Positions 5,425-10,374 of a stretch of DNA of 64,000 bases are shown one piece after another. Below the pieces are notes generated by a model. The model was not told the origin of the DNA, made no database searches, and saw only the letters and a list, made by a program, of their open reading frames with translations. The stretch covers positions 1-64,000 of the forward strand of contig JJNX02000001.1 in the NCBI GenBank assembly GCA_000681355.2. The letters run 5' to 3'. Within the stretch, counting starts at the first letter, position 1; each line of letters begins with the position of its first letter. Position numbers and translations under genes: made by a program. The DNA comes from Peptococcaceae bacterium SCADC1_2_3. GTDB lineage: Bacteria; Bacillota; Desulfotomaculia; Desulfotomaculales; Nap2-2B.

Positions 5425-6345
5425 ATGTACGAGCTAATTATCATAGGCGGCGGGCCGGCGGGCATGACCGCCACGGTATACGCCGCCCGGAAAAAAATAA
5501 ACACCCTTTTAATCAGCAAGGACATAGGGGGACAGCCCTTAGTTACCGCTAACATTGAAAATTATATGGGCTACCAGTTTATAGAAGGACCGGAGCTAAT
5601 GCAAAAATTTGAAGCTCAGATCCGGCAGTTTCCGGTAGAAATAAAAAACGGAGTTGAGGTAAAGAATCTGGCTCAAATAAAAAACGGTTTTACGGTAAAG
5701 ACGGCAGAAGAAGAAGAATTCCAGGCCAAAACAGTGATTATTGCCACCGGTAAAAAGCCCCGGCCGTTAAACGTACCTGGTGAAGAAAAACTAAGGGGCA
5801 GAGGAGTAACATATTGTGCTATTTGCGATGGTCCTCTTTTTGCCGGGGAAAATGTGGCGGTAATTGGCGGCGGCAATTCTGCCCTGGAAGCTACAGACGA
5901 CTTAATTAAAATAGCCTCCCATGTTTATCTTATTTCCAGAAGCTCTCTAACGGGTGATGCCGTAATTATTGAGCGGGTTAAAGGCGCTCCCAACCTGACC
6001 ATACTTTTGAACTACCAGCCAACTGCCGTAGGGGGAACTGCTAGGGTAGAAAATATAACCGTCAAAAATTTAAAAACCAGGGAGCAACAGGATTTAACGG
6101 TAAGCGGTATTTTTGTAGAGATTGGGCTTATTCCTAATTCTGATTTAGTCCGTGAAATTGTCCCCCTTAACGAACTAGGGGAAATTAAAGTAAATTGCGC
6201 TAACGGAACAGAGGTGCCGGGTTTATTTGCCGCCGGTGATGTGACTGATGTTCCGGAAAAGCAGATTATTGTATCCGCGGGGGAAGGAGCAAAGGCTGCG
6301 CTGCAGGCCCATCGCTATCTGCAGCGGTTGAACGAGGCAAGTTAA
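5425..6345 (+). CDS. trxB: thioredoxin reductase-like FAD oxidoreductase
   Basis: GGGPAGMTATVYAARKK, CAICDGPLF redox motif, GGGNSALEA, AAGDVTD. Confidence 0.85.
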   Translation: MYELIIIGGGPAGMTATVYAARKKINTLLISKDIGGQPLVTANIENYMGYQFIEGPELMQKFEAQIRQFPVEIKNGVEVKNLAQIKNGFTVKTAEEEEFQAKTVIIATGKKPRPLNVPGEEKLRGRGVTYCAICDGPLFAGENVAVIGGGNSALEATDDLIKIASHVYLISRSSLTGDAVIIERVKGAPNLTILLNYQPTAVGGTARVENITVKNLKTREQQDLTVSGIFVEIGLIPNSDLVREIVPLNELGEIKVNCANGTEVPGLFAAGDVTDVPEKQIIVSAGEGAKAALQAHRYLQRLNEAS

Positions 6346-6348
6346 CTG

Positions 6349-6375
6349 CCTGCATCTGCATTTTCCCATTTTAGG
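6349..6375. repeat. left copy of 27-nt direct repeat
   Basis: CCTGCATCTGCATTTTCCCATTTTAGG, 26/27 identical to 10311-10337. Confidence 0.9.
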
Positions 6376-6402
6376 AAGCAGGGGGACGTTCTTTTTGCTT
6401 CC
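6374..6402 (-). repeat. 29-nt REP-like palindromic element, copy A (inverted)
   Basis: Reverse complement GGAAGCAAAAAGAACGTCCCCCTGCTTCC. Confidence 0.9.
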
Positions 6403-6406
6403 TTGT

Positions 6407-7177
6407 CTAGGCCTTAAAGACCATATTTTGACTTAATCCAGTTACCCGGGCAATCTGCCGCTGTGTTGCCCCTTCAATAACCTTGACTCGCCTAAGTATC
6501 TCATCTCGCTTTTGTTTCTCAATGGTTCGCAAAATTGTTACTGGCGCCCCATTTAACATAGCTTCAATCTCTGCTTTTAATTCACCATCGGGTTTCCTTT
6601 GTTTGATTCCATCACCAAGGCATGTATCCTGAATTTCCATTTTCATATACTCGTGAAATCTGTGTATCGCCTCAGTCCGCTCTTCGGCGAAAATCCCTAA
6701 AACGAAACCATCATCGGTCAGTCCAATTGGATTTTCAGGCCGGCCATAATATGCCTGGATGCTGCTCCAGCAATATTCTTCCGGTTTGCTTACCATCCCC
6801 GCTTTTACCGGATTGTTATGAATGTATCTGATAACGGTCAACAAATATCCATCATCTTTAACACATTCACTTCTATAGCGACCCTGGAATACATGGCCGT
6901 TTCTTTGATATTTCCGGTTATACCACCAGGCATAACTGGTTCCTATGCGTTTCATGATTTGGTGGATCTCTTCATTTTTTTCATGAATAAGCAAATGGAT
7001 ATGATTACTCATCAGGCAATATCCATACACTTCAAACTTGTCAGTCTTCACCCGGCCAAGAGTTCCCAGAAAACGCTGATAGTCATCTTGGTCGCAGAAT
7101 ATGTCCTGCCGGTTGATTCCTCTTGTCACGATGTGGTAAACTCCGCTCTCACACCGCTCCCTTGCTTGTCTTGCCAT
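6407..7177 (-). mobile_element. REP-associated tyrosine (Y1) transposase, RAYT/TnpA_REP-like
   Basis: YHIVTRGINRQDIFCDQDDYQRFL...GYCLMSNHIHLLIHE (HxH motif)...RYIHNNPVKAGMV. Confidence 0.92.
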
Positions 7178-7225
7178 CTATCATCACGCTTTCAGATTTT
7201 CTTTATTATATCGAACAATTGCTAA

Positions 7226-7254
7226 GGAAGCAAGAAGAACGTCCCCACGCTTCC
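7226..7254 (+). repeat. 29-nt REP-like palindromic element, copy B
   Basis: GGAAGCAAGAAGAACGTCCCCACGCTTCC. Confidence 0.9.
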
Positions 7255-7258
7255 ACAA

Positions 7259-7287
7259 GGAAGCAAAATGAACGTCCCCTTGCTTCC
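7259..7287 (+). repeat. 29-nt REP-like palindromic element, copy C
   Basis: GGAAGCAAAATGAACGTCCCCTTGCTTCC. Confidence 0.9.
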
Positions 7288-7454
7288 ACCTTTGCTTCCA
7301 ACGGAATGGCGGGTGCAAAGGGCGTCCCGACCGAATTGCTCGAAGGAAGCCCCTTCCGCAAACAACAGGGAAAAACCCCCAAAGTAGCAGTGGTAGTTCT
7401 GATGAAACCGTGTTATAATTCAAGTAGGATTTTCCTACAAGGAGGTAATTCCAA

Positions 7455-7778
7455 ATGGCCAATCAGATAGCCGTGCGGATAGACAATAAGGGCCGGGTTA
7501 CCCTGCCCAAAAACATACGGCAGGCTTTAGGGGTGGATACGGGCGACACCGTATTCCTCAAGTATGAGCCTGAAGGAAACTTGGTACGGATGAGCCGAGC
7601 CGTAGAAGACCCTATTGCAGTTTTATGGGAGCATGCTGAAAAGGAATACCAGGCGGGGAAAACGAAGGACTTGAGGGATTACGCCCGGGAGCAAGGATTA
7701 ACCGATGTCTTAGAGGTTTTCGGTTCAGAACAAGGGCCATGCCCTAAAAGGGTTGCTACGGGACCTTCGGTCGCTTGA
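7455..7778 (+). CDS. AbrB/SpoVT-type antitoxin-like DNA-binding protein
   Basis: AVRIDNKGRVTLPKNIRQALGVDTGDTVFLKYE; RBS AAGGAGG. Confidence 0.8.
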   Translation: MANQIAVRIDNKGRVTLPKNIRQALGVDTGDTVFLKYEPEGNLVRMSRAVEDPIAVLWEHAEKEYQAGKTKDLRDYAREQGLTDVLEVFGSEQGPCPKRVATGPSVA

Positions 7779-7905
7779 GTTTTTCCTGCCAGGAGGAGCC
7801 TGCCGGGCCGTTTATGCAGTTAAGACTGGGGAGCAGGTTTGTCTAGTGATTATTGTTGGCATCACGAAGGCCTTTACGAAAGAGCTGAGCGCATGGTAAG
7901 GGCGA
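7710..7905 (+). pseudogene. degraded RelE/ParE-like toxin (frameshifted)
   Basis: Frame 2: HALKGLLRDLRSLEFFLPGGACRAVYAVKTGEQVCLVIIVGI, continuing in another frame as HEGLYERAERMVRAIRR. Confidence 0.6.
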
Positions 7906-7961
7906 TTAGGCGACAGGGACTGCTGAAGTGGAAGTGCGCTAAATGTTTCGCCAGGTCAGGA

Positions 7962-8114
7962 GAAGGAAAACAGGCCAAAGCCACCAGGAAAATGTGGTTG
8001 ATTGAAACCAAGGGCTGGGAAAAAGAAGATACTCTTTTAAAAGACGCCAGAGCAAACAAATGGTGTAAAGATGCCTCAGCTTATTTCAAGTCTTGGTCAT
8101 TGAACACCTGGTAA
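7962..8114 (+). pseudogene. C-terminal fragment resembling type III restriction / DEAD-helicase R subunit
   Basis: RKMWLIETKGWEKEDTLLKDARANKWCKDAS...SW resembles the conserved C-terminal ETKG...K..A..WC segment. Confidence 0.5.
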
Positions 8115-8261
8115 CAGGCTAAAGCATTAGAAATAATAATTTTAATTTTTTGGTTAGAAGTTAGGAAAAAAACTTATTTTGCATGGTTTTTAGGTGCTAA
8201 TTTTTACGCCTGGATACAGTTTTTAGAGACATTTCAGTGATAAAAAGGGGGTGCAAAATCA

Positions 8262-8711
8262 ATGAAAACAAATTCCAAAGGTTATGTTATCACTGCGGAT
8301 GTTTCATCTATTAGGGATATTATTTGTGATGAAGTTTGGCAGATTACCAGGTCCAGTAAGCATATTTCGGGTACTGTATGGGTTCCAGAGCTCGCCCCAA
8401 GTTCTCAATTATTCGAAAAATATCTTAAGGAGTGGAAGGATAATCCGGTAGAAGAGTGGTGGTACCTTTACAAAGATGCATTTAATAAAGAATTAAAATC
8501 AGCTAAAAAACTCGGCGCATTGAAAAAGCTGGGGAGATTAGTGGAATCGGGAAGAATTATTGCCTTGATTTGCTTTTGCAGAGACAGTGATCATTGCCAC
8601 AGGGCTTTAGTAGGAGAACTTCTTAAGCAATGTGGGGTAGAGGTGGAAGAATACGTTAAAAAAAAGAAAACCGAAACTCATACTTACGTTGAACAGTTGA
8701 CTTTGTTTTAA
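8262..8711 (+). CDS. DUF488-family protein, paralogue 1
   Basis: ALICFCRDSDHCHRALVGELL (C...CHR hallmark). Confidence 0.75.
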   Translation: MKTNSKGYVITADVSSIRDIICDEVWQITRSSKHISGTVWVPELAPSSQLFEKYLKEWKDNPVEEWWYLYKDAFNKELKSAKKLGALKKLGRLVESGRIIALICFCRDSDHCHRALVGELLKQCGVEVEEYVKKKKTETHTYVEQLTLF

Positions 8712-8730
8712 GTAAAGGAGGAAATTTAGT

Positions 8731-9177
8731 TTGACAATTTATACTATCGGTTTCTCTAAAAAAAATTTAAGAGAATTTATTGCCAAATTACAAAACGCAG
8801 GGGTTAAAAAAGTAATAGATGTGCGTCTTAATAATACTTCGCAACTAGCAGGATATGCCAAGAAGGAAGACCTGGAATACATTCTTGATTTGGTGGGTAT
8901 TGGCTACGAACATCACCCAGAACTAGCACCAACAGAAGAATTGTTGAAAGGTTATAAACAGAAAAAGATTCCATGGGATCAATATGAGAGCGAATTCAAC
9001 AAAATATTGCCAAAAAGGCAACCCCTCAAGAGTATTGATTTTGAAAATCAAAATGGCTCTATTTGTTTACTTTGTTCTGAAGATAAACCTGACCGGTGTC
9101 ACAGAAGACTTTTAGCAGAGTATTATAGCAGAAATTTACCAGGGGCAGGAGCAAGGGTAGAAATTAAACATTTGTAA
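8731..9177 (+). CDS. DUF488-family protein, paralogue 2
   Basis: IYTIGFSKKNLREFIAKLQNAGVKKVIDVRLN...CLLCSEDKPDRCHRRLLAEYY; TTG start with AAAGGAGG RBS. Confidence 0.88.
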   Translation: MTIYTIGFSKKNLREFIAKLQNAGVKKVIDVRLNNTSQLAGYAKKEDLEYILDLVGIGYEHHPELAPTEELLKGYKQKKIPWDQYESEFNKILPKRQPLKSIDFENQNGSICLLCSEDKPDRCHRRLLAEYYSRNLPGAGARVEIKHL

Positions 9178-9184
9178 AAAGAGA

Positions 9185-9898
9185 ATGGCGGATAAAACAG
9201 ATACTTATTGTTTAATGGATCAATTTCTTTGGGGAGAGGAAGTTAATTTGGAAACAATTAGAATAGTTTGCCTGGCTAATTCGAGGAAATTGGGGGAGCG
9301 TTGTATAGCAGGAGTCGATTTGGAGACAGGAAAGTGGGTGAGACCAGTCAATGAAGGTGGAGCCGAATTGTCCTTAAAAGACATAAATTACGAGGATGGG
9401 TCAACGCCGCAGGTACTAGACATAATAAATATGCCGGTTATAAAACGACAACCGCTTTATTATCAGCCAGAAAATTGGGTTATAAATAGAAAAAATTTTT
9501 GGTCAAAGGTTGGAAGGCTTCCGGTAAGTAAGTTGCAACAATATTGTGAGAATTTACCCTTTATTTTTTATAACTCTAGTGATCGTTTGCCTCAAGATTT
9601 TATTTTGTCAAAAGGAATCGAACAATCTTTAATTTTGGTGGAAGTCGAAGGAATATGTATCGAAAAAAAATTACCCCCATGGAGAGCCAACTCTCAGGTG
9701 CGGGCAAAGTTCAAATATAATGGTATTTTCTACGACTTGGCAGTAACCGATATACAGTGGGAACAGAAATTTTCGGGCCAACAAATAGAGATTGGGGAGT
9801 ATCCTTGTAAAGGACGATTCTTGTTGACTATTGGCCTCGGAAAAGAGTTTAAAGGGGAACATTATAAACTGATAGTTAGTATTATAAAACTTGATTAG
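9185..9898 (+). CDS. predicted beta-rich, possibly dual OB-fold (DuOB-like) protein
   Basis: IRIVCLANSRKLGERCIAGVDLETGKWVRPVNEGG...; 7 nt after DUF488 gene. Confidence 0.55.
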   Translation: MADKTDTYCLMDQFLWGEEVNLETIRIVCLANSRKLGERCIAGVDLETGKWVRPVNEGGAELSLKDINYEDGSTPQVLDIINMPVIKRQPLYYQPENWVINRKNFWSKVGRLPVSKLQQYCENLPFIFYNSSDRLPQDFILSKGIEQSLILVEVEGICIEKKLPPWRANSQVRAKFKYNGIFYDLAVTDIQWEQKFSGQQIEIGEYPCKGRFLLTIGLGKEFKGEHYKLIVSIIKLD

Positions 9899-10068
9899 AG
9901 TAGACTAAAATGTTGGGTCAATGATAAATAAAAAAGGTGTTTTTGACCCAACTATGGAAATACGCTAATATAGAAAAAGTTATAAAATTACCTAAGTTAG
10001 AGATGGTTTTACGATGGAAAAAGCAATTAATCCTATGAATTAGCAAAGTTAAAGGAGATGTTAACTTC

Positions 10069-10374
10069 ATGGCACGTAAAAAGAAAAGTGCAATTAACCA
10101 AACCAGAGGTATCCTGTACGGACTGGGTAAATTTTTAGGCGATGTTTTATCAGTACAAAAGGGTACGGTAGGCAAGCGTGTAGCCAGAAGAGCAGCAGGT
10201 AAGGTGTCAGGCAGGTTATTGGGGAAGTTGTTTAAGTTAAGGATAGAAAAAATGTCAGAGCGATTTAAACCAACTGCACACTCCATTTTTACTTTCCATA
10301 AAATTACCCCCCTGCATCTGCATTTTCCCATCTTAGGTGGGCGAGGCAGGTGTTTAACTTTCTTCTTTCTTTAA
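10069..10374 (+). CDS. small, strongly basic hypothetical protein; C-terminus probably non-native
   Basis: AAAGGAGATG RBS; MARKKKSAINQTRGILYGLGKFLGDVLSVQKGTVGKRVARRAAGKVSGRLLGKLFK. Confidence 0.6.
   Translation: MARKKKSAINQTRGILYGLGKFLGDVLSVQKGTVGKRVARRAAGKVSGRLLGKLFKLRIEKMSERFKPTAHSIFTFHKITPLHLHFPILGGRGRCLTFFFL
10311..10337. repeat. right copy of 27-nt direct repeat
   Basis: CCTGCATCTGCATTTTCCCATCTTAGG. Confidence 0.9.

Follow-up and report, generated by a model that had tools for sequence, protein, structure and literature searches.

The window analysed here, a stretch of 64,000 nucleotides from Peptococcaceae bacterium SCADC1_2_3 (contig JJNX02000001.1, assembly GCA_000681355.2), carries between trxB and cimA a cassette with a run of three genes, two of which encode DUF488 proteins and the third a dual-OB protein (DuOB). 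The features of the cassette are the following:

6339..6375, plus strand: left copy of a direct repeat, beginning at the trxB stop codon
6407..7177, minus strand: Y1 transposase (IS200-like, RAYT-type; PF01797, E 9e-16), at the left end of the cassette
7455..7778, plus strand: MazE/AbrB-like antitoxin-type regulator (PF04014, E 3.8e-10; TIGR01439)
8262..8711, plus strand: DUF488-N3a, of the 'active DUF488-N3 subclade', 149 amino acids (PF22751, E 3.6e-22), occupying the variable second-enzyme slot
8694..8708, plus strand: codons for QLTLF, a candidate beta-sliding-clamp-binding motif at the C-terminus of the window N3a protein (...TYVEQLTLF)
8731..9177, plus strand: DUF488C, the DUF488 core enzyme, 148 amino acids (PF04343, E 3.1e-27; PADLOC PDC-M45C, model PDLC04658, E 2.3e-50 over residues 1-136)
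9185..9898, plus strand: DuOB (PF22557, E 3.1e-57; PADLOC PDC-M45A, model PDLC04653, E 1e-51 over residues 24-235)
10301..10337, plus strand: right copy of the direct repeat, just before the 3' end of cimA, at the junction with the empty site of genome G003

The three genes are a real run of open reading frames on one strand, and the first two are, as had been proposed, paralogous DUF488 genes: the N3a protein scores 79.3 bits against PF22751 (cut-off 27) and the core enzyme 96 bits against PF04343 (cut-off 22.2), and the Cys...CHR loop is kept in both (CFCRDSDHCHR in N3a, CLLCSEDKPDRCHR in DUF488C). The spacing between the genes, first given as 20 and 7 nucleotides, needs revision, since the first gap is 19 nucleotides and the second is 7 only if DuOB begins at the ATG at 9185. 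In the alignment, homologues of DuOB start about 20 residues later, near 9248, where the window has a TTG with a good ribosome-binding site (GGGGAGAGGAAG). This TTG is probably the true start, which would put the gap between DUF488C and DuOB at about 70 nucleotides, and strong translational coupling across a 7-nucleotide gap is correspondingly weakened as a reading. DUF488C likewise has a TTG start, preceded by AAAGGAGG.

Comparison with a genus-mate (G003) defines the limits of the cassette. In that genome about 63 nucleotides separate trxB from cimA, the gene after it, and the window sequence up to 6345 and from 10338 aligns directly to it at 86–90% identity, the approximately 4 kb in between being absent. 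Positions 6346-10337 are an insertion relative to G003 and, because the intervening segment is missing there, the trio rides on this insertion. The direct repeat, 37 nucleotides long and 86% identical between the copies at 6339-6375 and 10301-10337, is present at both ends, in agreement with the repeat-flanked cassette of the preliminary description, and its 20-nucleotide core is found nowhere in the 2.59-Mb assembly outside these two copies. The empty site of G003 shows no clear second copy of the repeat, and a search of 10 family genomes that allowed up to 3 mismatches did not recover the core; on the latter ground we set aside the idea that a repeat copy is used for attachment in relatives. 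The Y1 transposase gene lies between inverted repeats of 31–33 nucleotides (6374-6406 on one side, 7224-7254 and 7255-7287 as a tandemly duplicated end on the other), an arrangement that, over 6374-7289, resembles a RAYT/REP-type element. Toxin-antitoxin relics had also been suspected in this region; the MazE/AbrB-like gene is confirmed and the other relics are not. The segment at 7839-8114, formerly taken for a type III restriction-like fragment, matches no Pfam, PADLOC or NCBIfam profile and gave no tblastn match on plasmids, and the type III restriction-modification label was dropped.

Sequence searches of solved structures with all three trio proteins returned nothing relevant, including no PDB sequence homologue of DuOB, and no family for these proteins was found in NCBIfam; the profiles and predicted structures are more informative. 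DuOB matches the Pfam 'dual OB-containing domain' above the cut-off, with 194 bits over the full profile (1-210/210), and its AlphaFold2 model has a mean pLDDT of 94.7 and a pTM of 0.90. Compared with the PDB by Foldseek, this model retrieves tandem-OB proteins, namely the HIN-200 domains of p202 and IFI16, Teb1, RPA70 and POT1, with E-values of 1e-3 to 2e-2, probabilities up to 0.99 and TM-scores of 0.25–0.41; the OB domain of lysyl-tRNA synthetase is also among the matches. The predicted fold is thus like that of known tandem-OB DNA binders, from which DuOB differs in being bacterial and linked to DUF488 and in TM-scores that reach only 0.25–0.41. The profile and the model together substantiate the earlier impression that the third protein is OB-like.

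The core enzyme DUF488C is unusually conserved. In a 31-member alignment D30, R32, LNN, S37, Q38, C115-S-E and C123-H-R are invariant, and the motifs DxRLNNxSQL, LCSE and CHR are common to all 31 sequences. Its AlphaFold2 model (pLDDT 89) gives weak Foldseek matches (best E-value 0.03), none of them significant when taken singly, led by tetrapyrrole-methylase and PTP-phosphatase folds and including a baculovirus RNA 5'-phosphatase; the predicted fold fits a placement in the rhodanese-phosphatase superfamily without proving it. In N3a the conserved positions, drawn from 10 aligned homologues, are W-x-ITR, LAPS, WW, CxC and CHR, and the presence of the Cys/CHR loop agrees with its assignment to the Pfam DUF488-N3a family. 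DUF488 is a widespread family for which we know of no established function. A RapZ-C-DUF488-DUF4326 clade, to which the trio enzymes belong, is reportedly named in the abstract of Burroughs and Aravind's 2023 survey of rhodanese-phosphatase proteins, which is also said to predict DNA-end processing in conflict systems. The Pfam families DuOB, mSLOG and DUF488-N3a/N3i presumably derive from the same survey. Our search of the available literature found no description of the trio, and it found no experimental report of anti-phage protection by it.

Two of the three trio proteins correspond to components of PDC-M45, a phage-defence candidate in PADLOC: DuOB is component A and DUF488C component C, and the three-gene layout is that of loci with DUF488B. 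The difference lies in the B slot, normally held by a long DUF488 of about 205 amino acids. Genuine PDC-M45B proteins score 188–208 bits against the B model, whereas the window N3a reaches 21.5 bits over 48 residues (98-145), and since it is hardly recognised by this model, the window trio is a variant rather than a plain PDC-M45 system. In PADLOC-DB 2.0.0 we found no strong model for N3a and no match for the DUF4326 partner encountered at other loci (below). The idea of an undescribed defence or nucleic-acid-processing system consequently survives in part: linkage, neighbours, patchiness and the tandem-OB fold support the defence reading, but with PDC-M45 already catalogued and Pfam families in place for DuOB, DUF488-N3a and mSLOG, the system was not undescribed.

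The association of the genes was examined at 34 DuOB loci fetched from other genomes. A DUF488 gene adjoins DuOB on the same strand at every one, usually tens of bases away, and DUF488C is present at 33. Because DUF488 was found in only 22 of 120 genomes of the phylum, chance adjacency is negligible, and the recurrence of the trio elsewhere, like the tandem-OB model and the matched DUF488 profiles, leaves the proposal of a DUF488-DUF488-OB system standing. The second-enzyme slot is filled by DUF488B at 18 loci, by DUF4326 (a protein with the Pfam mSLOG domain, mSLOG-DUF4326) at 13, one of them a mere fragment, and by N3a, the type seen in the window, at 3. Gene order varies, with DuOB last, first or between, and the set stays together. 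The invariant core of the module is DuOB with DUF488C, and the second enzyme is drawn from the same rhodanese-phosphatase-like clade. In a tree of 50 DUF488C proteins, three groups are split exactly by partner, with 2 partner changes for 3 labels, the minimum, against a mean of 20.7 in shuffled data, and with support of 98/97 for the N3a group and 98/94 for the DUF4326 group, which indicates that the core DUF488C and its partner are inherited together.

DuOB is rare and patchily distributed: 10 of the 60 close relatives searched have it, as do 11 of the 300 phylum genomes; it is absent from all 14 control genomes. Among 50,697 phage records DuOB had no match, and no phage counter-system was seen there. 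A toxin-antitoxin pair was considered and rejected, the trio being three conserved genes with no toxin- or antitoxin-like pairing, as was a housekeeping operon, given the patchy distribution and the mobility of the module.

The neighbours of the trio include defence and mobility genes. The nearest sequenced relative of the window locus, in a Pelotomaculum metagenome-assembled genome (L028; DuOB 56% identical), has the gene order brxF-brxC-pglXI-[N3a-DUF488C-DuOB]-brxHI-pglZ-brxA, all in one direction and with the trio 28 nucleotides after pglXI and 30 before brxHI. This matches a complete type III BREX operon, with the trio inside it, although such embedding was seen once, in this metagenome-assembled genome. 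The window trio differs in having no adjoining BREX gene: BrxC, PglX and PglZ are absent from the cassette and its surroundings, and the PglZ genes of the same genome lie on other contigs. There are likewise no BREX genes near the closely related trio of genome G104. A 2026 survey of BREX does not mention rhodanese, DuOB or a clamp in its main text (PMC12839542). The PglZ domains of the Peptococcaceae genome itself are found at two loci (contigs C60 and C26); on C60, PglZ and a BrxA-like gene come after a PglX-like gene and genes that look, to the eye, like the RAMP genes of CRISPR type III.

At another locus the trio directly follows a type I restriction-modification operon and a YgjP-like gene (hsdM-hsdS-hsdR-ygjP-[trio], L110), and a trio in the order DUF488C-N3a-DuOB is followed by a Cas_APE2256 gene (L148). 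Elsewhere, an Agrobacterium plasmid has it next to CBASS genes and an integrase, and other loci place it beside csm6, csx16 and cas1, or beside a type IV restriction enzyme together with PDC-S42, PDC-M22 or a TIR protein. Citrobacter and Acinetobacter carry copies on mobilizable plasmids. Some copies (L109, L111, L112) lie among ordinary genes. A plasmid of only 4.2 kb (CP052514.1) carries DuOB, and at one locus (L029, 815-3626) the trio lies, by eye, directly 3' of a cysteine desulfurase-like gene and mnmA.

The C-terminal QLTLF of the window N3a resembles the bacterial clamp-binding consensus, QL[S/D]LF or QxxLF, of which the QLSLF at the end of Bacillus subtilis PolC is an example (PMC12309361). 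Among the 55 genes of the window, only N3a carries such a motif within the last 45 residues. With proteins treated as independent and their relatedness ignored, QxxLF occurs in the tails of 8 of 11 N3a proteins (shuffle mean 0.15, 0 of 1000 shuffles as high) and 18 of 28 DUF488B proteins (shuffle mean 0.40, none as high), and by the same test it does not exceed chance in the tails of DUF488C, DuOB or DUF4326. The linked N3a of L148, which ends in QLRLFDW, brings the count for system-linked N3a tails to 9 of 12; about a dozen standalone YeaO-like N3 proteins have neither the Cys loop nor the motif. The motif is also missing from the DUF4326 variant and from several (proteobacterial) DUF488B proteins, and at two loci (L089 and L090, in genomes G148 and G110) DUF488 proteins next to which no DuOB was detected nevertheless have QISLF or QISLL tails. 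Since it is absent from some variants and present in these two proteins, the motif is neither universal nor specific to the system, and long DUF488 proteins may more generally be recruited to the clamp.

Taken together, these observations make it an even proposition, in our judgement, that the trio is mobile, is associated with defence and works as a DNA-processing complex brought to the sliding clamp. The elements of this reading are of different strength. The link with defence is well supported, and a role in defence or conflict is highly probable; DNA is the probable substrate; and recruitment to the clamp, suggested by the tail motif, is slightly favoured. In the mechanism that we envisage, DuOB would hold single-stranded DNA, a DNA end or a junction through its tandem OB folds, as its predicted structure suggests. 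The DUF488 pair, perhaps assembled as a heteromer, would act on the nucleic acid so held through the conserved Cys...CHR loop, by putative phosphate or sugar-phosphate chemistry, a role proposed from their clade and motif, and the QLTLF tail of N3a would dock the complex on the beta sliding clamp and thereby bring it to replicating or newly entered DNA. The outcome, judging from genomic context, could be interference with phage or plasmid DNA or, alternatively, a modification step that assists the neighbouring restriction-modification or BREX systems. As an unbroken chain, from the hold of DuOB to interference or assistance, this scheme is tentative. More speculative still is the proposition, which we consider rather improbable as it stands, that DuOB trios form a distinct clamp-tethered class of defence module that chemically modifies nascent strands or DNA ends at the replication fork, whether on its own or as a cartridge plugged into BREX or restriction-modification operons, with an exchangeable second enzyme (DUF488B, DUF488-N3a or mSLOG-DUF4326).

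Other readings start from the same proteins. DUF488 might act on RNA termini, for example those of cleaved tRNA, with DuOB binding RNA, as a means of defence or of repair after tRNA damage. The baculovirus RNA 5'-phosphatase and the lysyl-tRNA synthetase OB domain found among the structural matches of DUF488C and DuOB would suit such a function, as would the Csm6 or Cas_APE2256 genes that adjoin some loci, and RapZ-C, which has been put in the DUF488 clade, binds a small RNA. We nonetheless regard RNA-end processing as unlikely, for the best matches of DuOB are DNA binders, the enzyme tails carry a clamp-type motif, and most neighbours are restriction-modification and BREX systems that target DNA. 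A module for replication-coupled DNA repair or end cleaning, simply carried on mobile elements and with no direct anti-phage role, is also an unlikely reading. Clamp motifs are typical of repair proteins, and the tandem-OB fold of DuOB and the ordinary genes beside some copies would be in keeping with such a module; its patchy presence (11 of 300 genomes), its placement in or beside restriction-modification, BREX, CBASS and CRISPR genes and the frequent broken copies are, however, not what a housekeeping repair operon would show. Processing of NAD+/ADP-ribose or nucleotide signals, in which the second enzyme would hydrolyse phosphates on ADP-ribose-like products or on signals, is suggested by the mSLOG domain of the DUF4326 variant and by the proposal from Aravind's group that DUF4326 acts on the terminal phosphates of ADP-ribose products (PMC9503650), but is very improbable, as the module has no consistent NAD-consuming or signal-making gene, the constant component DuOB resembles nucleic-acid binders and the window variant lacks a SLOG domain.

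New in the present analysis are the partner split, the candidate clamp motif, the BREX embedding, the empty site of G003 and the tandem-OB likeness, and the first three of these are the parts most worth following up. They provide DUF488 with testable hypotheses, in the form of a constant partner (DuOB), an exchangeable second enzyme, a tail sequence of clamp-binding type and a direct physical link to BREX. Should that tail sequence prove functional, a defence module recruited to the sliding clamp would be at hand, and the search for the DUF488 reaction would narrow to replicating DNA.

Fragmented copies of the trio are common. In one genome (G159, contig C23) a degraded second copy has the N-terminal half of DuOB running in frame into DUF488C, followed by N3a. 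On the 8.2-kb Klebsiella pneumoniae plasmid pH205, an ISEcp1-blaCMY-36 segment separates DuOB from remnants of DUF488/DUF4326 and seems to have broken the trio. The Peptococcaceae genome itself contains a second trio, DUF488B-DUF488C-DuOB of PDC-M45 type, spread over two contigs (C188 and C37), in which DUF488C appears to be split by an insertion; the contig ends carry CCCACTGCAAAAA and its inverse TTTTTGCAGTGGG, which resemble terminal inverted repeats, and share the adjacent ATACATGA, which resembles a target duplication.
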